Position numbers and translations under genes: made by a program
In this document: positions 8,315-50,942 of the stretch, one piece after another
How the letters are laid out: each line of letters begins with the position of its first letter
Numbering within the stretch: position 1 is the stretch's first letter
The notes under the pieces: generated by a model
Told to the model about the DNA's origin: nothing
The model's input: only the letters and a program-made list of their open reading frames with translations
Database searches by the model: none
DNA from: a virus
Virus record (IMG/VR): IMGVR_UViG_3300021368_002416
Span: 1-63,604 of that record
Reading direction: 5' to 3' (one strand)
DNA length: 63,604 nucleotides

Positions 8315-8391
8315 TGGTGGGCCCTGCAGGGCTCGAACCTGCGACCTACTGATTATGAGTCAGTTGCTCTAACCGGCTGAGCTAAGAGCCC
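8315..8391 (-). tRNA. tRNA with CAT anticodon, probably Ile2 (k2C-type)
   Basis: The loop CTCATAA and the elements GGTCGCAGG and TTAGCTCAG resemble bacterial Ile2 rather than elongator Met. The acceptor is GGGCTCT/AGGGCCC, and the 3' ACCA is encoded. Confidence 0.85.
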
Positions 8392-8396
8392 ATTAG

Positions 8397-8470
8397 TGAA
8401 CCAGACAGGATTCGAACCTGTGACCGTCTGCTTAGAAGGCAGATGCTCTATCCAGCTGAGCTACTGGTCC
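8397..8470 (-). tRNA. tRNA-Arg(TCT)
   Basis: Full cloverleaf with loop CTTCTAA and acceptor GGACCAG/CTGGTTC; discriminator A and no encoded CCA. Confidence 0.93.
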
Positions 8471-8484
8471 ATTCATTAAATTTG

Positions 8485-8570
8485 TACTCGAGGACGGGCT
8501 CGAACCGTCACGGACATTACTGCCCAAGGGATTTTAAGTCCCTCGTGTCTACCAATTCCACCACTCGAGC
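8485..8570 (-). tRNA. tRNA-Leu(TAA)
   Basis: Type II tRNA with long variable arm, anticodon stem GGGAC region and loop with TAA, acceptor GCTCGAG/CTCGAGT. Confidence 0.92.
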
Positions 8571-8572
8571 AT

Positions 8573-8810
8573 AAAGGTCCTAATTTCGTTTAGGACCAGG
8601 ACGTGATCGGTTTAGGCTCTCAGCTCTAAACGATCAGCGGCTTATGCCGCTAATGCAAAGTTGTCGTTTGCGTAGATTAACCCACTCTCACTATCGCTAT
8701 CAACCAATGTCAAAAGCCGGTCATCCCCATTGTAATTAATGCCTTTGTGGAGATGGCGGGATTCGAACCCGCGTCCATCGATCCGCCAATAATGGTCATC
8801 GAAGATTAAT
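8573..8810 (-). ncRNA. ssrA: Circularly permuted tmRNA (acceptor piece upstream of tag piece)
   Basis: tmRNA rescues stalled ribosomes together with SmpB. Reading the minus strand, the 3' tRNA-like part comes first: GGACGCGGGTTCGAATC, then CCGCCATCTCCA, ending at 8748. A 19-nt linker (8729-8747) follows, then the 5' part GGGGATGACCGGCTTTTGAC from 8728, then the tag. GGGGATG pairs with CATCTCC to close the acceptor stem across the junction. The tag reading frame (8642-8671) encodes ANDNFALAA and stops in a GCGGC-ATAA-GCCGC hairpin. Two strong hairpins follow, at about 8605-8640 and 8576-8600. No acceptor piece lies after the tag, so the gene is permuted, as in alphaproteobacteria and some cyanobacteria. 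CCA is not encoded. The 5' and 3' limits are approximate. Confidence 0.88.
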
Positions 8811-8813
8811 TTG

Positions 8814-8887
8814 TGGAGAATATCGGAGTCGAACCGATGACCTCCTGCGTGCAAGGCAGGCGCTCTAGCCAGCTGAGCTAATTCCCC
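8814..8887 (-). tRNA. tRNA-Ala(TGC)
   Basis: Loop CTTGCAC, acceptor GGGGAAT/ATTCTCC, discriminator A. It lies directly upstream of the tmRNA acceptor piece. Confidence 0.93.
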
Positions 8888-8894
8888 ATTTAGT

Positions 8895-8972
8895 TGGCGG
8901 TCTGGACGAGACTCGAACTCGCGACCCCTTGCGTGACAGGCAAGTATTCTAACCAAACTGAACTACCAGACC
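8895..8972 (-). tRNA. tRNA-Asp(GTC)
   Basis: Loop CTGTCAC; acceptor GGTCTGG/CCAGACC with discriminator G and encoded CCA. Confidence 0.93.
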
Positions 8973-9240
8973 AAATTACACTTAGCGAGATTGACTAAGC
9001 TAGATTTTAACGGTTTTCTTTCCTCTTGAATTAAACCATTAGTGTCTTACCACATAAAAACAAGTCAAGCTTTTGGGAGGCTCTGCTACCTGCCTTGATT
9101 CCCATTCCCAGTATTTTAATCTTAAAGACCAGCTACTACCTGTCTGATAGTCTTTCCTTCAATAAGAATTTCAGTTGCCACCTGGGCATTAACTGAGGTA
9201 TGTTAATGTTACCTAAACATCCAAGTATCTCTAACTTGGC
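8973..9240 (-). ncRNA. Spacer with possible structured RNA
   Basis: About 270 nt without a tRNA or a credible gene. On the minus strand I see hairpins CTTAG/CTAAG, AGGTA/TACCT, CCAAG/CTTGG and an AAAGAC/GTCTTT pair enclosing a longer segment. It lies inside a continuous tRNA transcript, so it would be transcribed. It may be a stable RNA or only a processed spacer. Confidence 0.35.
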
Positions 9241-9241
9241 T

Positions 9242-9331
9242 TGGCGGAAGGGGTGGGATTCGAACCCACGGTACGCTTTCACGTACGCCGGTTTTCAAGA
9301 CCGGTCTCGTAAACCACTTGAGTACCCTTCC
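9242..9331 (-). tRNA. tRNA-Ser(TGA)
   Basis: Type II, anticodon stem CCGGT/ACCGG with TGA, acceptor GGAAGGG/CCCTTCC, discriminator G, encoded CCA. Confidence 0.93.
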
Positions 9332-9335
9332 AATG

Positions 9336-9418
9336 ATAGTGACCGTTTAACCCTCGGATTACAGGTGTTAAAATCACTAGGTCCAAGAATACTATTCTTG
9401 GAGGGGTTCATCCGATTT
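9336..9418 (-). ncRNA. Small hairpin RNA between tRNAs
   Basis: A perfect hairpin, CCAAGAATA/TATTCTTGG, is enclosed by CGGAT/ATCCG, giving a closed two-stem fold of about 60 nt. No tRNA signature. Function unknown. Confidence 0.35.
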
Positions 9419-9420
9419 AG

Positions 9421-9494
9421 TTGCGGGAGACGGACTCGAACCGCCGACCTCGAGCTTATGAGGCTCGCGAGCTACCAACTGCTACCATCCCGCT
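9421..9494 (-). tRNA. Initiator-like tRNA-fMet(CAT)
   Basis: GGTAGCTCG, CTCATAA and AGGTCGGCGG follow the bacterial initiator pattern. The acceptor leaves position 1 (A) opposite position 72 (A), an unpaired 1-72 position, which is the hallmark of formylated initiators. The anticodon stem is CGAGC/GCTCG, not the three G-C pairs usual for initiators, so the call is strong but not certain. Confidence 0.75.
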
Positions 9495-9499
9495 ATGTT

Positions 9500-9575
9500 T
9501 GGAGCCTTCTGAGGGACTTGAACCCACGACCTGCTGATTACAAATCAGCTGCTCTACCAGCTGAGCTAAGAAGGC
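9500..9575 (-). tRNA. tRNA-Thr(TGT)
   Basis: Loop TTTGTAA, acceptor GCCTTCT/AGAAGGC, discriminator T, encoded CCA. Confidence 0.93.
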
Positions 9576-9582
9576 AAAAGGG

Positions 9583-9646
9583 GGACTTAGAACCTTGGTC
9601 TTATGCAACCTAGGATTTTCTGCAGCCTGTTCATAGTCCCCAGTAA
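9583..9646 (-). pseudogene. Degenerate tRNA-like element
   Basis: A perfect 7-bp acceptor (GGGGACT/AGTCCCC) encloses only about 61 nt. There is no proper T arm (the GGTTC remnant lacks its stem) and no clear anticodon arm. It could be a decayed tRNA or a minimal structured RNA kept in the cluster. Confidence 0.4.
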
Positions 9647-9651
9647 AATTG

Positions 9652-9724
9652 AGCAGAAGACGAGATTCGAACTCGCAACTTCCAGCTTGGAAGGCTGGCG
9701 CTCTACCAATTGAGTTACTTCTGC
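9652..9724 (-). tRNA. tRNA-Gly(TCC)
   Basis: Acceptor GCAGAAG/CTTCTGC, anticodon stem CCAGC/GCTGG with TCC, discriminator T. Confidence 0.93.
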
Positions 9725-9731
9725 CAAATAG

Positions 9732-9813
9732 TGCGGATGAAAGGACTCGAACCTTCACGCGATAAAGCACTAGTGCCTAAAACTAGCGTGTCTACCAATT
9801 TCACCACATCCGC
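9732..9813 (-). tRNA. tRNA-Leu(TAG)
   Basis: Type II tRNA, anticodon stem CTAGT/ACTAG with TAG, acceptor GCGGATG/CATCCGC. Confidence 0.92.
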
Positions 9814-9820
9814 ATATTTG

Positions 9821-9892
9821 TAGCCCCTAGGAGAATCGAACTCCTCTTTCTAGGATGAAAACCTAACGTCCTAACCGATAGACGAAGGGGCC
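9821..9892 (-). tRNA. tRNA-Glu(TTC)
   Basis: Loop TTTTCAT, acceptor GGCCCCT/AGGGGCT, discriminator A. First tRNA after early element E4. Confidence 0.92.
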
Positions 9893-9935
9893 ATGGTGCC
9901 AATATGTCAAAGAACTTCTTCTTTTAATTATATTG

Positions 9936-9968
9936 CTAATATAAACAAAGTTTTTTAAACCTGAAAAT
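9936..9968 (-). promoter_or_regulatory. Early promoter-like element E4 in the tRNA cluster
   Basis: An upstream box CAGGTTTA is followed by 12 nt and TATATTAG. It lies about 45 nt before the tRNA-Glu block. Confidence 0.6.
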
Positions 9969-9986
9969 ATTTTGCAACTTTTTTTG

Positions 9987-10060
9987 CTCTTCCTCTTGGG
10001 CTCGAACCAAGGACCCTCTGATTAACAGTCAGATGCTCTAACCAACTGAGCTAAGGAAGA
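9987..10060 (-). tRNA. tRNA-Asn(GTT)
   Basis: Loop CTGTTAA, acceptor TCTTCCT/AGGAAGA, discriminator G. Confidence 0.93.
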
Positions 10061-10094
10061 ATGTGAGTATTATATAACCCTTTTCCTAAATTGT

Positions 10095-10556
10095 TTATTG
10101 AATCGTATCGGAATCTAAGATTACTACGTCTGGAATAACGATCGGTCTTATTTCAATATGGTCCTCTTGTCCTCTAACTGGCTTTTGAGTGTAGCAGTAG
10201 ATTGGGTGGCCGTCCATATCATAGTAAAAGTATTCCTTCGTTGTTGGATCTAAGAATGCCCTGTAGATACCATTATTTTCATCAACATAGATAATTTTAC
10301 CCGTTTCTGTGTCCGATCTGAGGCCGATGGAAAAGCTTTTACCTTTATTAGCCCTTGCCTCTTCGTAATCTTTAATGTGTTGTTCGATCTTTTCCATTGA
10401 TTCATTAATTTGTTGATATTGATGAACTAATTTATTAAGATCGCTGGCATAATTAATTACAGGGCGCACATAGCTAATCAGGGTTATCAGTGCCCCGATT
10501 GCAGTGATTACAAAGATCACGTTGCTTGCCTTGTCTTTAAATACCTTAAATGCCAT
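10095..10556 (-). CDS. Membrane-anchored coiled-coil protein in the tRNA cluster (153 aa)
   Basis: The N-terminus NVIFVITAIGALITLISYV is one transmembrane helix. A coiled coil follows (QQINESMEKIEQHIKDYEEA), then a beta-rich soluble domain (GKIIYVDENNGIYRAFLDPT). It is the only sizeable protein gene among the tRNAs. A late promoter-like GATATATA lies only 5 nt before the ATG, which would give a leaderless or nearly leaderless transcript. The topology suggests an inner-membrane protein with a large domain on one side, possibly a lysis or superinfection factor, but nothing identifies it. Confidence 0.75.
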   Translation of the reverse strand: MAFKVFKDKASNVIFVITAIGALITLISYVRPVINYASDLNKLVHQYQQINESMEKIEQHIKDYEEARANKGKSFSIGLRSDTETGKIIYVDENNGIYRAFLDPTTKEYFYYDMDGHPIYCYTQKPVRGQEDHIEIRPIVIPDVVILDSDTIQ

Positions 10557-10560
10557 ACAT

Positions 10561-10568
10561 TATATATC
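10561..10568 (-). promoter_or_regulatory. Late promoter-like GATATATA
   Basis: The octamer ends 5 nt before the ATG of the 153-aa membrane protein, so transcription would begin at or next to the start codon. Confidence 0.5.
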
Positions 10569-10578
10569 ATTCAGTTTG

Positions 10579-10652
10579 AGGCGAAGGTTGGATTCGAACC
10601 AACGAATAACGGGTTTGCAAGCCGCTCCCTTCGACCGCTTGGGTACTTCGCC
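10579..10652 (-). tRNA. tRNA-Cys(GCA)
   Basis: AGCGG...CCGTT surrounds TTGCAAA, as in bacterial tRNA-Cys, with one C-C mismatch closing the loop. Acceptor GGCGAAG/CTTCGCC, discriminator T. Confidence 0.88.
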
Positions 10653-10654
10653 AA

Positions 10655-10732
10655 TGGGGTGAATGATGGGGTTCGAACCCACGACCTCTGGAACCACAAT
10701 CCAGCGCTCTAACCAGCTGAGCTACAATCACC
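10655..10732 (-). tRNA. tRNA-His(GTG)
   Basis: Extra 5' G (G-1) opposite C73, loop TTGTGGT, one T-T mismatch in the acceptor, encoded CCA. Confidence 0.9.
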
Positions 10733-10736
10733 ATAT

Positions 10737-10813
10737 TGGTTGGAAAGGGCGGGCTCGAACCGCCGACCTCTACATTATCAGTGTAGCGCTCTAACCAACT
10801 GAGCTACATTCCA
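10737..10813 (-). tRNA. tRNA-Ile(GAT)
   Basis: Loop CTGATAA, acceptor TGGAATG/CTTTCCA with one mismatch, discriminator A, encoded CCA. Confidence 0.92.
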
Positions 10814-10820
10814 ATTTTTG

Positions 10821-10894
10821 TCGGGTAAGCAGGATTCGAACCTGCGACCCCCTGGTCCCAAACCAGGTGCGCTACCGGACTGCGCCATTACCCG
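10821..10894 (-). tRNA. tRNA-Pro(TGG)
   Basis: Anticodon stem CCTGG/CCAGG with TGG, acceptor CGGGTAA/TTACCCG. Confidence 0.93.
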
Positions 10895-10969
10895 TGGTCC
10901 GTATTTAGGGATATTTCTTAACCACCTCCTCAGCTCGGCAGCGGACATATCTGTCTCGTCTCGGTGGTA

Positions 10970-11050
10970 AATACTTCATAGTAGGATTCGAACCTACACC
11001 TAGCCTTACATTCTAGACTGCAGTACTAGTGCCAACTTTTCCAGAAGCAT
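10970..11050 (-). ncRNA. Aberrant tRNA-like RNA 1
   Basis: The acceptor ATGCTTC/GAAGTAT and T arm GTAGG-TTCGAAT-CCTAC are intact. The 5' half is about 8 nt too long and has no regular D arm. A CTAG/CTAG hairpin with ATGTAAG in its loop could present GTA, but a canonical tRNA-Tyr(GTA) exists at 11801, so this may be a decoy or a decaying duplicate. Confidence 0.5.
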
Positions 11051-11053
11051 TTG

Positions 11054-11126
11054 TGGATTTGGACAGAATCGAACTGCCGACACGAGGATCTTCAATCCTC
11101 TGCTCTACCAACTGAGCTACAAATCC
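11054..11126 (-). tRNA. tRNA-Phe(GAA)
   Basis: Anticodon stem GAGGA/TCCTC with GAA, acceptor GGATTTG/CAAATCC, discriminator A. Confidence 0.94.
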
Positions 11127-11131
11127 AAACT

Positions 11132-11235
11132 CGTTCTATTGTGGGACTCGAACCCACATCCAGCCTCTCTGTTACTCTGTTCTACAGAGCATTCGGATTC
11201 GAACCGAAGTGTTGCCTAATTACACCAAATAGAAC
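11132..11235 (-). ncRNA. Aberrant tRNA-like RNA 2 (about 104 nt, two T-arm-like hairpins)
   Basis: A perfect acceptor GTTCTAT/ATAGAAC, a good D arm (GTGT/ACAC) and a normal 3' T arm (GTGGG-TTCGAGT-CCCAC) are present. In the anticodon position sits a hairpin, TTCGG-TTCGAAT-CCGAA, which itself looks like a T arm and would present CGA. An unusually long variable region holds a 6-bp hairpin, CTCTGT/ACAGAG. It may be a type II Ser(CGA)-like tRNA or a non-translating mimic. Confidence 0.5.
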
Positions 11236-11239
11236 TTTG

Positions 11240-11313
11240 TACACCAGGAAGGATTCGAACCCTCAACCCCTTGATCCGTAGTCAAGTACTCTATCCAGTT
11301 GAGCTACTAGTGT
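11240..11313 (-). tRNA. tRNA-Arg(ACG)
   Basis: Loop CTACGGA; reading of CGN codons would need host A34-to-inosine editing. Acceptor ACACTAG/CTGGTGT. Confidence 0.9.
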
Positions 11314-11492
11314 ATGGCGGGCCGGCTTTTTGTGATGGAAACTCGCCCACGAAACCATTTTTTAACACCTCTTGGCAACCTACCAATTAAAAACACAACT
11401 CTATCTCCTTTGAGTGTTCAGGGTTGACATTGCCATTTTTCAGGTATTCTTACATATCCATGCTCCCTTAGTTGCGTTACAGGTGTATTTAG
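11314..11492 (-). ncRNA. Spacer with possible structured RNA
   Basis: About 180 nt with no tRNA. Minus-strand helices include ACACTC/GAG(T)TGTGT, TTGG/CCAA and ATGG/CCAT, along with a G/C-rich stretch near GCCGGCCCGCC. Two ATG codons occur, but no frame of useful length. Kept as a possible stable RNA within the cluster. Confidence 0.3.
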
Positions 11493-11567
11493 TGGCGGGA
11501 GTGGGACTCGAACCCACGTCATTCGGCTTATGAGACCGAGCTGGAACCACCTCCAGTCCATCCCGCT
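11493..11567 (-). tRNA. tRNA-Met(CAT), third CAT tRNA
   Basis: Anticodon stem TCGGT/GCCGA with CTCATAA loop and a 5-bp D stem CTGGA/TCCAG. The acceptor core GCGGGA/TCCCGC is clear, with position 1 (A) opposite C. With an Ile2-like and an initiator-like CAT tRNA already present, elongator Met is the likeliest role, but the unpaired end leaves some doubt. Confidence 0.8.
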
Positions 11568-11573
11568 ATATTG

Positions 11574-11648
11574 TGGGAAATATAGGATTCGAACCTATGA
11601 CCCCTTGCTTGTAAGGCAAGTGCTCTGAACCAACTGAGCTAATTTCCC
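11574..11648 (-). tRNA. tRNA-Val(TAC)
   Basis: Anticodon stem CTTGC/GCAAG with TAC, acceptor GGGAAAT/ATTTCCC, discriminator A. Confidence 0.93.
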
Positions 11649-11651
11649 GTT

Positions 11652-11742
11652 TGCTAGGGCAGGATTCGATACCTGCACGAAATGCCTCCACTCGAGTTGG
11701 ACATTTTACGGAAGTCCGCACCTCTATCTTGGGCTACCTAGC
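11652..11742 (-). ncRNA. Aberrant tRNA-like RNA 3
   Basis: The acceptor GCTAGG/CCTAGC and a T arm GCAGG/CCTGC are present, but the T loop has eight nt (TATCGAAT) instead of seven. The anticodon region offers GGAC/GTCC with an 11-nt loop. A long variable arm contains TCCA/TGGA. Length (91 nt) fits a type II tRNA, yet no convincing anticodon can be read. Confidence 0.45.
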
Positions 11743-11800
11743 GCTTTGCAAAATTTCTATGGTAGTGGCACCTTTACGCGGCCAATTGCTCTACTTGCGA

Positions 11801-11886
11801 TGGTTGGAGAGGAGGGACTCGAACCCCCAAGGTCGTGAGACGGCAGATTTACAGTCTGCTGAGCCAACCAATTGCTCAACTCTCCA
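11801..11886 (-). tRNA. tRNA-Tyr(GTA)
   Basis: Type II tRNA, anticodon stem GCAGA/TCTGC with CTGTAAA loop, acceptor TGGAGAG/CTCTCCA, encoded CCA. Confidence 0.93.
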
Positions 11887-11893
11887 TTATTTG

Positions 11894-11966
11894 TGACCCC
11901 TCAGGGGCTCGAACCCTGGACTCTCACATTAAAAGTGTGATACTCTACCAACTGAGTTAAGAGGTC
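11894..11966 (-). tRNA. tRNA-Lys(TTT)
   Basis: Loop CTTTTAA, acceptor GACCTCT/AGGGGTC, discriminator A. Confidence 0.94.
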
Positions 11967-11970
11967 AAAT

Positions 11971-12060
11971 ATAGATGAATAGAGGATTCGAACCTCGCTA
12001 CAATTTAACTCCATTATAACAACCTGAATTGAACAGGCCACGACCAACTCGCTTCATCTA
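11971..12060 (-). ncRNA. Aberrant tRNA-like RNA 4
   Basis: An 8-bp acceptor (TAGATGAA/TTCATCTA) and a good T arm (GAGG-TTCGAAT-CCTC) are present. GCCTG-TTCAATT-CAGGT could act as an anticodon arm presenting CAA (Leu), but the D region is about 4 nt short and the variable region is AT-rich and lacks a clear arm. Confidence 0.5.
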
Positions 12061-12064
12061 TTAG

Positions 12065-12135
12065 TTGTCCCGCAGAGACTCGAACTCCAATCTTCTGGAC
12101 CAAAACCAGACGTGCTGCCATTACACCACAGGACA
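12065..12135 (-). tRNA. tRNA-Gln(TTG)
   Basis: Anticodon stem TCTGG/CCAGA with TTG, acceptor TGTCCTG/CGGGACA, discriminator A. Confidence 0.92.
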
Positions 12136-12176
12136 ATTTTACCAATATGTCAAAGAACTAATCTTTAATTACAGTG

Positions 12177-12208
12177 CTAATATAAAAATTATATCTGACA
12201 CTGAAAAA
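12177..12208 (-). promoter_or_regulatory. Early promoter-like element E5
   Basis: TTTTTCAGTGTC, 12 nt, TATATTAG, about 42 nt before the tRNA-Gln block. Confidence 0.6.
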
Positions 12209-12238
12209 CTTTTTTACAACTTTTTTCAAAGTTTTTTG

Positions 12239-12325
12239 CGGAAAGTAGAGGATTCGAACCTCTGGATCCCTATCGAGATCAACTCCTTAGCAGGGAGCCA
12301 CAATCGACCGCTCTGTCAACTTTCC
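12239..12325 (-). tRNA. tRNA-Ser(GCT)
   Basis: Type II tRNA, anticodon stem GCTCC/GGAGT with GCT, acceptor GGAAAGT/ACTTTCC, discriminator G. Confidence 0.92.
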
Positions 12326-12331
12326 AATTTG

Positions 12332-12402
12332 CACGTCCACAAGGATTCGAACCCTGATCAACGGTTTTGGAGACCGCTATTCTACCATTGAACTATGGAC
12401 GT
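12332..12402 (-). tRNA. tRNA-Trp(CCA)
   Basis: Anticodon stem GCGGT/ACCGT region with CTCCAAA, acceptor ACGTCCA/TGGACGT, discriminator G. First tRNA of the cluster in transcription order. Confidence 0.93.
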
Positions 12403-32093: not shown

Positions 32094-34973
32094 TTATCCA
32101 AAGTTACCTGCTTCGATATCTCCAGTGTTTAGTACTGTTACACGAGAAACTAAGATTTCAAGACCTTTAACTGGCTCGACATAAGTATCAAGGATACCCA
32201 TATTATTATCGATCACTTCAGTTGTATTGTTGGTCGTGTCCATGATATTTCTATAGTCGTAAATACCTTGGTCAGTTCTTACTGATTCCATAAATGAATC
32301 TGCAAGAGTCTTAATTTCAAGTCTTGTCTGTGCAGTATTAAACTCGAACAGGTAGTTCTGTAAGATCGCTGCTAGACCATCTTCGATATAGATCAATACC
32401 TCTCTTACGTGGGCTGAAGAAAGAGCTGATTGAATACTTTGTTGAGCAGTCTTGTTACCTTTAATTACGATACCTGCACCTCTTTCGAATACGATTGGGT
32501 TGATACCAAATGGTTCAAGAACGTCTCTGTCATTTTTATCGAATGGATATTCAACACCTTGTACTCCAGATCCTCCGACTGCTCCTCTTCTTGGACCAGC
32601 TACGATTGACCACGGCAGAGAATCAGTGTACTTATCGATGTAATTGTTCGATACGTAAGCTGCTGGTGGAATCACTTTAGTTTTTCCATTCTCTAGTACA
32701 TTTAGACCTGGACCGTAGTAGAATCCATAGCTTGCTCCTTCGTTAATAGAAGGTAGAGTGTATAGAGCTTCTGGGTTCAGGTTTAGGTTACCTCCAGTTC
32801 CAACGTAACGTGTATTAAATGCTCCTGTATTTTCATCAAGGAATGATGGGTTAGTAGAAGCTTTTAGTTCTTTTACCATCGGTGCGTTTAGAATCGCTGA
32901 AACATTTTGTCTCTCTTTTGCAAGTAGAGTAAATTGTTCTTTGTTTAAGATTCCGCTTGCAGCTTCGTAAGATCCAAAGGTATCTACTAAATATCTGAAC
33001 GTGATTGCGTCTTTGTCTGCTAATGTATTTGAAACTCCATTTCCAGGTGTTAATACGTCTAGTAGTTCCTTGATTGTTTTGTCGCTGTTTTCAGCAGCTT
33101 CAAGAACGAATACTTTATAAGCATCTGATGCAGAATCAAAAGATCCAAGTGCATATCCAGGAGCTTGTGTTACGTCTCTGTGACAGATGAACGTATACGT
33201 GTATTTGTCGTTTGCACCTCCGTTAATTCCAAGCTCTGCCTTCTTTCTAATCTCTAGGATTCTTGCAAGTTTATCAGAACCAGTAACTGGAACGTACATT
33301 CCTACTTTAATATTATCGCTAATAACTTTAGATTCAGCACCTCCAGCAGTGGTAGTGTAGATGTATTTGAATTCTCCAGCAGTTGCTGCATTTTCAAATG
33401 TCCATCCAGAAACATCATTCGGGAAGAATACTGTTCTCTCATTTACTGCAATTGAGAATAGGTCAAACGCTAATTGTGGAGTTTGATCGTAAACTGCTAA
33501 TTCTACTTGACCGATTGAAGGTGTTGCAAATTGTCCATTTCCAGAAGGTACGATTGTAAGTGTACCGGCACCATCATCAGTTACGTTAAGAATTTCAACA
33601 TATTCTCCAGCGTTTGAACCTGCTAGGTATTTACCTCCTGCAAGTGCTCCGGCTGCAGCTCCTGTTAGAACTAAGTTAGCTCCAGAAAAACTAAATCCTG
33701 CGAATGTTGCGTTATTTTGTTCGTCTACAAATGCTTCATATTTTGCTTTGCTAATATCTTCAATCGCAACAACGGTTACGTCTTGTGTTGCAGCTGACCA
33801 GCTTTCATCAGCAACTGATACTGAAGCGATTTGAGTATATTCTCCATCGATTGAAGCATATAAGAAGTTGTCTTCTACAAGACCTGATGAAACCATTGCA
33901 CTGTAGTGTGCTAATGTAACGTCTTTAATAGTCATTGTATCTCCGTTAACTTCAACAACTTTTTCAAATGCAGCATCTCTACCTTCATTTAGGTTTAGTG
34001 GCTGTTGTTGAATTACAACGTGAGAAAGAAGTTCGTAATCTTGGTGAATATCAAATGATTCTCCTACAAAATCAATTCTATCAAGTGCATCTTCGTTAAC
34101 TGCACAGAAAAGTCCAGTTCTTCTTGATTCAGCGTTAATTAGAGTCTCAATGTAGTACATTCTTCCTTCATTATCTTGGAAGTCAGGAATTAGAGAACCT
34201 GTGTACTTAGCAACTAGAGTAACTTCTCTTAAGTTGGTAAATGCATTGAATTGTTCTGGAATAATTCCGTTTGAATTAAAGTAGTTACCGTAAGTCGGAT
34301 CGTTATTTAATTCAGAAGTTACAAATCTTCCTTTGTAAACGTATACATCAATCATATAATCTGAGATGTAATCTAAATCGTCGATTCCTTCAGGTACATT
34401 TCCTTCTCCGTACCATTCTCTTGCAGTAACATTAAAACCTCTTGTATCTTCAGCTTGTCTTGCGACAACTGTGATCGGGTCTTGTTTAATGTTAGTAAAT
34501 GTAAGAGCGTTATCTGAAGTTTCAGAAGTATTACCTGCTAAATCAAGTAGCTTTGCATCTTCTGGAATCCAGAACTTATCTCTGTTAAATACATTTTTGT
34601 AGTAGTCCGTACCTTCAACTGCTTCATTATCGTTTTGTGAACCATTTGTTGTAGGTGAAGCCCACCATATCTTGTCAGTATCGTTAGCAGAAGTAAGATT
34701 CAGCGCAATGATTGGACCTCTTGAAAGAGTTTCAATCGCCGATCTGTGGAAGTACATTCCCTTTCTTTCAAGTGCTTTATCAATAGAACCAAACACTTGG
34801 ATAAAAGTCTCAGTATCTTCAATGAAAACTGGTGTGTTGTAAGGACCCTTCTTTGAGTGACCTACCACCAATCTAATAGTCTCTGCAGGAATACTTACAG
34901 TTTGTGACTTGTCGAATTCAAGACGGTAAACACCTGCACTCTTGAATTGCTGTAATTGAGGACTTAATGCCAT
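32094..34973 (-). CDS. 18: Tail sheath protein gp18-like (959 aa)
   Basis: The contractile sheath. FKSAGVYRLEFDKSQTVSI and SKKGPYNTPVFIEDTETFIQ are the conserved N-terminal sheath segment. The C-terminal third (PSINEGASYGFYYGPGLNVL, ARRGAVGGSGVQG-type region, VSRVTVLNTGDIEAG) contains the helical domain. It is much longer than T4 gp18 (659 aa), with a variable beta-rich middle region that probably decorates the outside. Late promoter 31 nt upstream. Confidence 0.93.
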   Translation of the reverse strand: MALSPQLQQFKSAGVYRLEFDKSQTVSIPAETIRLVVGHSKKGPYNTPVFIEDTETFIQVFGSIDKALERKGMYFHRSAIETLSRGPIIALNLTSANDTDKIWWASPTTNGSQNDNEAVEGTDYYKNVFNRDKFWIPEDAKLLDLAGNTSETSDNALTFTNIKQDPITVVARQAEDTRGFNVTAREWYGEGNVPEGIDDLDYISDYMIDVYVYKGRFVTSELNNDPTYGNYFNSNGIIPEQFNAFTNLREVTLVAKYTGSLIPDFQDNEGRMYYIETLINAESRRTGLFCAVNEDALDRIDFVGESFDIHQDYELLSHVVIQQQPLNLNEGRDAAFEKVVEVNGDTMTIKDVTLAHYSAMVSSGLVEDNFLYASIDGEYTQIASVSVADESWSAATQDVTVVAIEDISKAKYEAFVDEQNNATFAGFSFSGANLVLTGAAAGALAGGKYLAGSNAGEYVEILNVTDDGAGTLTIVPSGNGQFATPSIGQVELAVYDQTPQLAFDLFSIAVNERTVFFPNDVSGWTFENAATAGEFKYIYTTTAGGAESKVISDNIKVGMYVPVTGSDKLARILEIRKKAELGINGGANDKYTYTFICHRDVTQAPGYALGSFDSASDAYKVFVLEAAENSDKTIKELLDVLTPGNGVSNTLADKDAITFRYLVDTFGSYEAASGILNKEQFTLLAKERQNVSAILNAPMVKELKASTNPSFLDENTGAFNTRYVGTGGNLNLNPEALYTLPSINEGASYGFYYGPGLNVLENGKTKVIPPAAYVSNNYIDKYTDSLPWSIVAGPRRGAVGGSGVQGVEYPFDKNDRDVLEPFGINPIVFERGAGIVIKGNKTAQQSIQSALSSAHVREVLIYIEDGLAAILQNYLFEFNTAQTRLEIKTLADSFMESVRTDQGIYDYRNIMDTTNNTTEVIDNNMGILDTYVEPVKGLEILVSRVTVLNTGDIEAGNFG

Positions 34974-45377: not shown

Positions 45378-46865
45378 TTATAGTTCTAGACCTGTTACCT
45401 CGAATGAGTAGTACATAGTCTCTGGGTGGAAACCTGCTTCAACTAGAGCGAATCTAGATTTAACAGCTACCTTAGGAGCCATTGTACCTTCAGCGATAGC
45501 TTGTACGCTTTCAGCCATTAGGTAAGGCATGAATACAAGACCAGCACCATTTCCATCACCTTTTCTACCAACGATAACTCTGTGAGTTTCAACTGCTGGT
45601 GAACCAGCTTGGTAACCTGAGAATGGAATTCTTGGGTCAGTGTAAACATTGATACCAGCTACAGAACCTACTGGGTAGATTGCACCTGCAACTTGTGATA
45701 CAGTGTTTGCCATTGGGTTAGGAACGAATCCTGCAACTCCTTGTAGAGCTGAAGCTACTTTAGCATCAACAACTGCGAAGTTACCAGCACCTCTTCTACC
45801 TCTGTTAGCGATTAGGTTAGCAGAAGCTAAGATGTGAGTAAGGATTCTTCTGTTTACGTCACCGTAAGTGTTACCACCAGCGCCGTAAGTTAGAGCTAGA
45901 TCTAGAGAAGTGTTAGCAGCTGCTTTGTTCTCTAATGCTAGTTCGTTGATTCTTCCTAGGATGAAGTCGTTGATTGACTGAGTTAATTCGTTAGTTAATA
46001 CAGCCTCTACTTGAGCTACTGCGTCAACTCCGAATTGCTTAAGATCCTGAACCTGCTCTCTAGTTACTGCAGCAGCAACTTGGAAAGTTTCAGCCTCTAC
46101 AGACTTGCTGAATAGAGATAGACCCATTAGCTTGTCAGCAGTTCTTTCACCACCTTCTCTTGAGAAAGGCTTAGCGAAAGTTGCGTAAGGATCGTTACCA
46201 GTGTTAACTCCATCACCAGAGAATCCTGGGATGTGGTCTTCTAGAGCCTTCACTAATTCAACTGCTGCTGAATTGTTACCTGAAGCCGCTCTGAAGTCAG
46301 CTAGTACGTTAGCCTCAACTAGATCACCAGTTACAGAGTAGATAGCGTATCCATCAATTCTTGAGTAACCTACTCTTGTGTAAGTTGCTGAAGTTGCTGG
46401 AGAACCTGGACCGAAAGATGCAGCGTCCTCATCAGACTTGATGTAAGTAGGAGCAGTTGCACCTAATTCGATAGTACCTCCTTCGTAAGTGAAGTCTAGG
46501 TAAGAAAGTAATCCCATAGGACCTGCCATTGGAATAACTGGTACAAGGTCAAGAGCGATAGTTTGAGCTGCAACTTGCATCGCTAGTGGAAGTAAAGTTG
46601 GAGCCTTATCACCAGAACCTACAGCACCAGAAGTATCACCGTTCTGTGCAGTCTGTGTTGGGAAAGAAACCGCGCCCATACCTGTTAGGTTCATTGGGCC
46701 AGGGTTGTTGCTTAATGACATGATGTTAGCATCTTCATAAAGCTTGTGATTGTGACAGTAAGTTGACATCCATGCCAGCTTTTCAGAATCGTTAATACCT
46801 GTAGCCTCCTCGATAATTGGAGCCCAAGTTGTTCTGATTTCTGCCTCGTTAATTAAATTAGCCAT
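45378..46865 (-). CDS. 23: Major capsid protein gp23-like (495 aa)
   Basis: MANLINEAEIRTTWAPIIEE and QTIALDLVPVIPMAGPMGLL are typical of T4-like gp23. Later features are GERTADKLMGLSLFSKSVEA, ANRGRRGAGNFAVVDAKVA and the C-terminal FEVTGLEL. The length is slightly below T4 gp23 (521 aa). The codon choice is markedly regular, as in highly expressed genes. It would be processed by the fused gp21-like protease. Confidence 0.97.
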   Translation of the reverse strand: MANLINEAEIRTTWAPIIEEATGINDSEKLAWMSTYCHNHKLYEDANIMSLSNNPGPMNLTGMGAVSFPTQTAQNGDTSGAVGSGDKAPTLLPLAMQVAAQTIALDLVPVIPMAGPMGLLSYLDFTYEGGTIELGATAPTYIKSDEDAASFGPGSPATSATYTRVGYSRIDGYAIYSVTGDLVEANVLADFRAASGNNSAAVELVKALEDHIPGFSGDGVNTGNDPYATFAKPFSREGGERTADKLMGLSLFSKSVEAETFQVAAAVTREQVQDLKQFGVDAVAQVEAVLTNELTQSINDFILGRINELALENKAAANTSLDLALTYGAGGNTYGDVNRRILTHILASANLIANRGRRGAGNFAVVDAKVASALQGVAGFVPNPMANTVSQVAGAIYPVGSVAGINVYTDPRIPFSGYQAGSPAVETHRVIVGRKGDGNGAGLVFMPYLMAESVQAIAEGTMAPKVAVKSRFALVEAGFHPETMYYSFEVTGLEL

Positions 46866-49343: not shown

Positions 49344-50942
49344 TTACATCATTCCACCCATCATATCCATTGCATCTGGTTCGTCTGCGCTTTCGGCGTC
49401 ATCTTTAGCCTTAGCCGCTGCATTTGCTGCCAAGTCATCATCAGATACTTTAAGATATTTTTTAACAAGGAAGTCCATGTCAAAGAAGTATTCTTCTTCC
49501 ATCGTCGCTGGGTTTGTTGTCATTAAGCTGTCTCTCATCTGTCCAATAAAGTCTAATCTACGCTCCATGATTTCGTAGTTCTTTAATTCTGCAAATACAT
49601 TTTCTTCATTAAATCGAAGTGCAACTTGCGTTTTGAATTGTGGATCGTTCTCGAACTCAGGGTATTTAAGACACATTTGTAAGTAGAGTGGCTTTACCAA
49701 TACCTCTTGGAAAACTGATCTAAGTCTATTAATAAACTTAGAGAATTTAATTTCATCTCTAATCATTCCATCAGCAGCAAGGTTAAAATCACCACCACCA
49801 TCTTCATATAGGAAACGTGAGTAAGGAATTTTAGAAACGTGTTTTAATTTATCACTAAAGTATTTAAGTGCTTCTGTGTCTGAAAGGTCAGGTCCATCGC
49901 CTCCAAGCGTTTCAATTTCTGGCTGTTCACCATCTTTTGAAGGTAACCAATATTCTTTATTGAATTGTAACATTGGTTTTCCATCAGTTTGAAGCGAAGC
50001 ACTTTCCCAGTCAAAATCAACATTTTCTTTATATGAGTGCATCAGTTGAGCAAGAGATTGTTTTGCTCTTGTCTTTGATTTACCACCAACCGGAATAATG
50101 AACTTCATTCTAAAGCTCGAGTTTGTTGTTGCCCAAATAACTCGAGTGTGTTCCATAATTCTCAATAGGTTAAATGCTCTAACAAGTCTTTCAATATATG
50201 AAACTCTACTTGCAGTCGTGATTGAAGAATATGAAATATAGATGATTTGAGAGTCGTATAATTTTCTCTCTTTTACTGGATCGTCTTTATATTGTACCCA
50301 AACTTTTTTACCGTCTTCGTGATTATATCCAGGAATAAGTGTAATTGGATCAAGTTCTTTAAAACCAATAATCTCCTTTTGATCTGGAGAATATACAATT
50401 TCGAATGCAAGATAACCATCAACTAAGAATTTTCTATAGTAATACCAAGCTGATTGATCTTGTGTAAATCCAAAGTACTGATAAAGTTGCTTATAATATT
50501 TGTTAAGATCTTTTTCAACTTCATCGCTAACTTCCATTCCAATGATTTCAGGTTGAGCAAAGAAATTTCTTTCATCATAAACTACAGTCTCATCACACAT
50601 AATATCGAGAATATCCTCGATCTCGTCGTTAAGTGAAAATCTTCTTAGTTCATCTCTTTTACCTTCATAATCCTTATCAAAGAATGGGATGTTTTTCTTT
50701 AGGTTGACATCAGTCATCGACAGAGCGGCAAACGCTCCATAGATGTCATCATTATCAAGACCCATCGGATTCATTTGACCATAGCCAAGTTGATCCTCCA
50801 TCGGCCCAATTGCTTGAGACTGTCGAAGAACCAAGTCATCGTATCTCATTCCAAACGATGATAGATTTTTCAATGCGGTAGAGATCCTAAATGGTCTCTT
50901 TCCCGTACTTAATGGTCCATTTCTATCAGTAAATCCTGCCAT
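49344..50942 (-). CDS. 20: Portal protein gp20-like (532 aa)
   Basis: The head vertex ring for DNA packaging. ISYSSITTASRVSYIERLVRAF, IEHTRVIWATTNSSFRM-type segments, RFLYEDGGGDFNLAADGMIRD and FSKFINRLRSVFQEVLVKPL are strongly gp20-like. Length matches T4 (524 aa). Acidic C-terminus. A late variant, GAATATATA, is 23 nt upstream. Confidence 0.95.
   Translation of the reverse strand: MAGFTDRNGPLSTGKRPFRISTALKNLSSFGMRYDDLVLRQSQAIGPMEDQLGYGQMNPMGLDNDDIYGAFAALSMTDVNLKKNIPFFDKDYEGKRDELRRFSLNDEIEDILDIMCDETVVYDERNFFAQPEIIGMEVSDEVEKDLNKYYKQLYQYFGFTQDQSAWYYYRKFLVDGYLAFEIVYSPDQKEIIGFKELDPITLIPGYNHEDGKKVWVQYKDDPVKERKLYDSQIIYISYSSITTASRVSYIERLVRAFNLLRIMEHTRVIWATTNSSFRMKFIIPVGGKSKTRAKQSLAQLMHSYKENVDFDWESASLQTDGKPMLQFNKEYWLPSKDGEQPEIETLGGDGPDLSDTEALKYFSDKLKHVSKIPYSRFLYEDGGGDFNLAADGMIRDEIKFSKFINRLRSVFQEVLVKPLYLQMCLKYPEFENDPQFKTQVALRFNEENVFAELKNYEIMERRLDFIGQMRDSLMTTNPATMEEEYFFDMDFLVKKYLKVSDDDLAANAAAKAKDDAESADEPDAMDMMGGMM

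Follow-up and report, generated by a model that had tools for sequence, protein, structure and literature searches.

A circularly permuted tmRNA gene in a T4-like phage of a likely Bacteroidota host and its relatives among other viruses

Background

The locus described here raises the question of whether a tmRNA gene whose acceptor and coding pieces are found in reversed order can be a working gene of a T4-like phage and, if so, to which tmRNA lineage such a gene belongs. The DNA analyzed, hereafter "the window", is a 63.6-kb fragment (63,604 nucleotides in all) from an uncultured virus in IMG/VR. A preliminary description, made from the sequence, proposed a permuted tmRNA at 8573-8810 with a 19-nt linker and an ANDNFALAA tag, and knew of none in a T4-like phage of a Bacteroidota-type host.

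Permuted tmRNA in phages is already known. A survey of 133 unique phage tmRNA structures counted 53 as two-piece, of which 50 were marine or aquatic, and assigned the two-piece tmRNAs to alpha, cyano and gamma/beta lineages (PMC9004378). Three main bacterial permuted clades and a merged model have also been described (PMC11915505). The merged Rfam model, RF04321, combines RF01849 (alpha), RF01850 (beta) and RF01851 (cyano). The presumed novelty therefore has to be narrowed: permuted phage tmRNAs, including those of T4-like marine myophages, are published (PMC9004378), but no paper presenting permuted tmRNA as a feature of Bacteroidota phages was found within the open-access literature. What looks new is the lineage, a mainly viral permuted group of Bacteroidota type. 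On the sequence comparisons given below, we consider it probable that the window carries a functional, phage-borne two-piece tmRNA gene that would serve ribosome rescue together with host SmpB, and that belongs to a lineage carried by viruses of Bacteroidota.

The permuted gene and its parts

A complete circularly permuted tmRNA gene occupies the minus strand from 8810 to 8573, in the order acceptor piece, 19-nt linker, coding piece, and all of the elements originally proposed are present (Table 1). A cmscan search with RF04321 (tmRNA_permuted) gave 62.7 bits for 8796-8642, with an E value of 9e-10 when the window is searched in full. As had been predicted for a permuted model, this match is above the curated cut-off (47 bits) and is full-length (model positions 1-213), which places the gene in the family. 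The acceptor stem, the T arm and the piece-joining helix P2 are all found, and in P1 the G3 of GGGGATG is paired with U70; a G3-U70 pair is an alanine determinant. The tag codons, GCA AAC GAC AAC TTT GCA TTA GCG GCA TAA, end in the hydrophobic AA terminus and stop codon expected of a tag frame. CCA is not encoded, the bases after the discriminator being CAA. The linker is presumably cut out by processing, and linkers of comparable shortness occur in both groups of related viral sequences considered below (groups 1 and 2). No conventional acceptor follows the tag: within 150-1500 nt downstream there is no acceptor 3' strand complementary to GGGGATG, and the order of the pieces is that of a permuted gene.

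The stability of the folded tmRNA exceeds that of its dinucleotide shuffles by 4.8 s.d. ARAGORN missed the window tmRNA and detected most of its relatives, and when the gene was compared with phages and plasmids by BLASTN, most of the matches were short ones in the T arm. Among the relatives the 3' hairpin keeps its loop and varies in its stem; this CGAAA hairpin probably serves as a terminator in several members, and it counted for little in the assessment. An open reading frame at 8642-8956 that spans the tmRNA gene was rejected as a chance frame.

Table 1. Positions of the tmRNA gene, its component parts and selected neighboring or diagnostic genes in the window
Feature	Position	Strand	Basis or remark
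Whole two-piece tmRNA gene	8573..8810	-	RF04321 match 8796-8642; flanking helix and 3' hairpin from alignment
Acceptor piece	8748..8810	-	sequence; pairs and covariation
P3 3' strand, acceptor piece	8810-8801	-	sequence, pairing
Helix strand, acceptor piece	8793-8785	-	sequence, pairing
P2 3' strand GATCGAT, acceptor piece		-	sequence, pairing
T arm GGACGCGGGTTCGAATCCCGC, acceptor piece		-	sequence
Acceptor 3' strand CATCTCC	8755-8749	-	sequence
Discriminator	A8748	-	sequence
19-nt linker between acceptor and coding pieces	8729..8747	-	sequence
Coding piece (acceptor 5' strand, D arm, P2, P3, tag, 3' hairpins)	8573..8728	-	RF04321 match, alignment
Acceptor 5' strand GGGGATG	8728-8722	-	sequence
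D arm ACCGGCTTTTGACA, coding piece		-	sequence
Acceptor stem P1, 7 bp GGGGATG/CATCTCC, closing on the linker	8722..8755	-	alignment, covariation
Tag frame ANDNFALAA, stop TAA	8642..8671	-	sequence; kept in relatives
Hairpin round the tag stop codon, TAGCGGC/GCCGCTG	8635..8652	-	alignment, covariation
Post-tag hairpin GATCG...CGATC	8605..8635	-	folding
3' hairpin GGTCCTAA-ACGAAA-TTAGGACC, then TTT; terminator-like	8573..8597	-	alignment
Major capsid protein, T4 gp23 type	45378..46865	-	used to find related viruses
Portal protein, T4-like	49344..50942	-	
tRNA-Ala(tgc), upstream tmRNA neighbor in the tRNA array	8813..8887	-	
tRNA-Leu(taa), downstream tmRNA neighbor	8484..8570	-	

Conservation and covariation among related viruses

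The same gene is present in a 166-kb virus with a 99% identical capsid protein (G003; RF04321 60.2 bits), in a 176-kb virus with a 71% identical major capsid protein (G017; 67.6 bits), where tRNA-Leu(taa) is again found downstream of it, and in several further viral contigs. In an alignment of eight related viral sequences, 99.4% of the cells of 43 pairs are paired, versus 94.6% after shuffling, and sliding the partners lowers pairing to 36-54%; compensatory cells number 20 versus 7.7 in shuffled alignments. Much of the covariation lies in helices formed between the acceptor piece and the coding piece, namely two outer helices and P2, which bears out the pairing of the two pieces that had been proposed. 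P2 is complete, with 7 of 7 pairs, in seven of the eight sequences and is made up of five different sequence pairs, and one P1 pair (alignment columns 70/109) covaries between U-A and C-G.

The relatives keep the tag, the acceptor stem, the T arm and the piece-joining helices, several of them through compensatory changes. The stop-codon hairpin, GCGGC/GCCGC in the window, is GCAGC/GCTGC in G003, and the G003 tag stays ANDEFALAA; tags in the relatives read ANDNFALAA, ANDEFALAA or DGEFALAA, and the changes are synonymous and conservative. A second group of 14 viral sequences gave the same outcome for pairing and covariation. Over all sequences taken in one fixed register the P2 signal is weakly positive, because the register differs between the groups. 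Judged by these patterns of substitution, the tmRNA gene is under selection across the related viruses.

The phage and its likely host

The T4-like nature of the phage, as first described, is borne out by a gp23-type capsid protein, a gp20 portal, a contractile sheath and replication genes of T4 type; the T4-like genes of the window comprise capsid, portal, sheath, terminase, clamp loader, helicase, UvsX, SbcC/D-like and DNA polymerase genes. Among annotated phages, the window is closest to LR756500 (uncultured, 462 kb; 51-59%), the Prevotella Lak phages and Tenacibaculum phage PTm1, and more distantly related to Sphingomonas phage PAU. Shine-Dalgarno motifs precede 2% of the window ORFs versus 4% in shuffled sequence, a lack of signal also seen in Bacteroidota loci and in the prophage of genome G317 (see below); in viruses with the TTCGAC permuted type the figures are 37% versus 10%. 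Because of the Lak and Tenacibaculum relatives, the lack of a Shine-Dalgarno signal and the Bacteroidota-type D arm, the suggested Bacteroidota host is likely.

Several other features of this genome were observed. The tmRNA gene is found inside an array of 26 tRNA genes (8315-12402) that spans nearly all amino acids. The tail sheath protein (32094-34973) has 959 aa, about twice the length of one PHROG sheath model that it matches (496 positions), with an apparent large insertion. The gene at 14184-14819 matches a phage RNA polymerase sigma-factor family, and the 400-aa DNA polymerase gene at 60599-61801 matches the C-terminal half of one model; the polymerase may be split.

Function of the window tmRNA

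Ribosome rescue with host SmpB is the likely function of the window tmRNA and the simplest mechanism. The preliminary description had suggested that the phage may supply its own rescue and that smpB be sought elsewhere in its genome. The RNA is indeed encoded, but SmpB was found in none of 29 phage records, among them those of the 166- and 176-kb relatives, the former being the record with the 99% identical capsid and the window record itself a 63.6-kb fragment; SmpB was detected in 10 bacterial control genomes. Since no searched phage record encodes SmpB, "own rescue" must mean rescue with the SmpB of the host.

The tmRNA would be transcribed together with the tRNA array, and the precursor would fold with the linker as the loop of the acceptor stem. 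By analogy with known two-piece tmRNAs, it would then be cut to an acceptor RNA of about 63 nt and a coding RNA of about 155 nt, which would remain paired. An enzyme would add CCA, and host alanyl-tRNA synthetase would be expected to charge the molecule, as for other two-piece tmRNAs. During infection, host SmpB would bring the charged tmRNA to ribosomes stalled on broken mRNAs, the ANDNFALAA tag would direct the product to host proteases (the tagging step again modeled on known two-piece tmRNAs), and the ribosomes would be recycled for the phage.

Other readings of the gene have been weighed against rescue. The phage RNA might act as a decoy that titrates host SmpB or alanyl-tRNA synthetase, a role proposed for an RNA of mycobacteriophage DS6A that consists of the tRNA-like domain only. 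The tRNA-like domain of tmRNA, when expressed alone, inhibits tmRNA (PMC4131195, PMC11915505), and a decoy would also agree with the lack of SmpB in the phage records; nevertheless we regard this role as improbable here, for the tag frame, the stop codon and the stop hairpin are kept with compensatory changes and would be superfluous in a decoy. Very improbable is a non-functional passenger, i.e., a decayed or hitchhiking fragment in the tRNA array. The location inside 26 tRNA genes is what such a fragment might show, and 62.7 bits is modest beside the 80-144 bits of TTCGAC-type viral permuted genes, but conservation and covariation extend across viruses that include those with 71% and 99% identical capsids, and the tag is kept through synonymous and conservative changes. 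That a one-piece tmRNA has been misread, with the upstream T arm belonging to another gene and the true acceptor lying downstream, can practically be dismissed: there is no such acceptor in the 150-1500 nt downstream, the one-piece model RF00023 is below its cut-off in the window, in G003 and in G017, and the covariation of acceptor and P2 pairs between the upstream and downstream pieces refutes this reading.

Affinities of the permuted gene

The D arm of the window tmRNA, GGGGATGACCGGCTTTTGACA, fits the Bacteroidota pattern GGGGNTGACCGG(N)TTTGACA with one extra base. At least 80 loci among 84,980 genomes have this pattern, and by record titles 77 of 80 among the matches listed are from Bacteroidota. 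All 90 of 90 distinct bacterial loci with this D arm and recognizable ends, nearly all of them Bacteroidota, are one-piece genes, an order confirmed by RF00023 above cut-off in 14 of 17 sampled genomes; the window gene, being permuted, departs from this order. Permuted TTTGACA genes numbered 0 in the 84,980-genome scan, a weak negative in that the pattern used (three bases from TGA to GG) would miss the window itself, and covariance-model searches of Bacteroidota genomes were used instead. RF04321 was run on 395 genomes from the phylum, and 396 from the order, of the Flavobacteriaceae genome G077, the two samples partly overlapping. About 790 draws yielded one permuted gene, in G317 (Flavobacteriales). 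This genome has its own one-piece tmRNA (160 bits); the permuted copy is next to tRNA genes and part of a prophage that has rIIA, rIIB, PolA and primase genes as well as an integrase gene adjoining chromosomal genes.

The window gene shares with the permuted tmRNAs of Rfam the acceptor-linker-coding order, a tRNA-like domain with G3-U70, a tag frame and a score that passes the RF04321 cut-off. It differs in falling below the cut-offs of all three lineage models (RF01850 gives a partial match of 49.4 of 84 bits, and RF01849 and RF01851 are not listed), in having TTTGAC rather than the consensus TTCGAC, in the absence of an encoded CCA, and in its occurrence in viruses of Bacteroidota. Likewise, no member of group 2 is above any lineage-model cut-off. 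The methylophage Melnitz and Pelagibacter phage Mosig are also marine myophages with T4-like genes and a permuted tmRNA (PMC9004378), but their tmRNAs are, unlike that of the window, of alphaproteobacterial type (for Mosig, 67.6 bits with RF01849 as computed here); a glutamine riboswitch has been reported for them (PMC9004378), whereas no riboswitch is found above Rfam cut-offs in the window. With the one-piece Bacteroidota tmRNA (RF00023) the window gene has in common the D arm and a CCA that is mostly unencoded, but the former is unpermuted and its tags mostly start with G (GENNYALAA-like). The AND... start of the window tag looks proteobacterial.

Distribution among viruses and changes of gene form

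Permuted tmRNAs are also present in other Bacteroidota viruses, including crAss-like phages and the Flavobacteriales prophage. In pattern scans of IMG/VR, classified by script, viral tmRNAs with TTTGAC were permuted in 49 cases and one-piece in another 49, of which at least 44 and 46, respectively, pass a strict arm filter; these counts are limited by the pattern and do not measure prevalence. Long-linker candidates, e.g., L320 and L370, are doubtful as permuted genes, and the count of 44 uses the stricter filter.

The tmRNA annotated by RefSeq in crAss-like phage cr60_1 (NC_055891.1; L531) is permuted according to ARAGORN, with the tag GNTSYVMDYTRLAA, and crAss-like phage cr53_1 (NC_055889.1; L532) also has a permuted tmRNA (50.3 bits). 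Like the window gene, those of cr60_1, cr53_1 and the G317 prophage are permuted, have a Bacteroidota-type D arm and/or tag, and come from Bacteroidota hosts; unlike it, they have long linkers, other tags and other 3' parts, and they reside in unrelated phage types.

Both gene forms are found among related viruses. In L422 (tmRNA at ~8.75-9.01 kb, minus strand) the gene is permuted, with 64.6 bits and no RF00023 match, while in L464 (~1224-1545) it is one-piece, with 93.7 bits and no RF04321 match; in both it lies between the same two genes, whose proteins are 83% and 91% identical. The two tmRNAs are too divergent to show rearrangement in place, and replacement is therefore equally possible. 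The two forms also occur in L132 (permuted) and L313 (one-piece), which have proteins of up to 70% identity in common. The huge phages LR756500 and Prevotella Lak-A2, larger relatives in the T4-like clade of the window (capsids 51% and 36% identical), have one-piece tmRNAs, with RF00023 scores of 95.5 and 58.2 bits.

The second group includes L132, L133, L134, L147, L407, L423, L498 and L502. Their tmRNAs are permuted, GEQVEYAMAA being one example of the tags, and have a 3' stretch, ACGG...CATGTCGTAAAA...CGG, that is conserved. Some Shine-Dalgarno signal is present in these viruses (30% versus 9% shuffled), in contrast to the window. Among isolates, the group is closest to Flavobacterium phage immuto, for which the tmRNA search yielded no passing match.

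Origin of the permuted gene

On the comparisons above, the window gene is outside the alpha-, beta- and cyanobacterial permuted models, in a lineage that appears to be carried by viruses of Bacteroidota. An independent permutation inside viruses is suggested, and the 92-column tree of the tRNA-like domain is compatible with one origin. In the fullest form of this proposal, permuted tmRNA would have a fourth home in Bacteroidota viruses, in addition to and distinct from its alpha, beta and cyano homes; the gene would have been permuted inside viruses from a one-piece Bacteroidota tmRNA, possibly repeatedly, and would be nearly confined to viruses, the hosts having the one-piece form. We hold this proposal tentatively, as having slightly less than an even chance of being correct.

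A known permuted tmRNA may instead have been transferred from an alpha-, beta- or cyanobacterial lineage, or from the phages of one, and then adapted to Bacteroidota translation with no new permutation, a real possibility that on balance we lean against. An AU test rejects neither a single clade of permuted genes (p 0.97) nor a grouping of group 1 with those of the TTCGAC type (p 0.94); its 92 columns are too short to decide the origin. ANDNFALAA resembles proteobacterial tags, whereas the usual Bacteroidota tags begin with G. Moreover, L290 and L334 are permuted and have TTTGAC, yet they have an encoded CCA, AND- tags and tails like those of beta-type viral genes; TTTGAC has thus apparently arisen by convergence on a beta-like permuted gene, and the D-loop signature alone is fallible. 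Against a transfer are the scores below the lineage-model cut-offs, the lack of an encoded CCA in the window gene, the 3' CGAAA hairpin, which is present in 0 of 14 TTCGAC permuted genes, and the Bacteroidota-like tags of other viral members, GNKTSYAMAA in L430 and GNTSY... in cr60_1. A transfer concerns origin and is compatible with the proposed rescue function.

Whether the permutation was independent is now testable, and related viruses with either form at one locus, as in L422 and L464, open the transition from one-piece to two-piece tmRNA to direct study. Bacteroidota phages, including crAss-like phages of the gut, would appear to bring into the cell their own rescue RNA with tags unlike that of the host.

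Two further observations were made on the more distant members. In the G317 prophage (L389/L393/L394; G317:C1 ~966-997 kb) the linker of the permuted tmRNA is about 110 nt and contains a long stem. In cr60_1, a RAGATH-20 RNA (122 bits) is located approximately 200 nt upstream of the permuted tmRNA.
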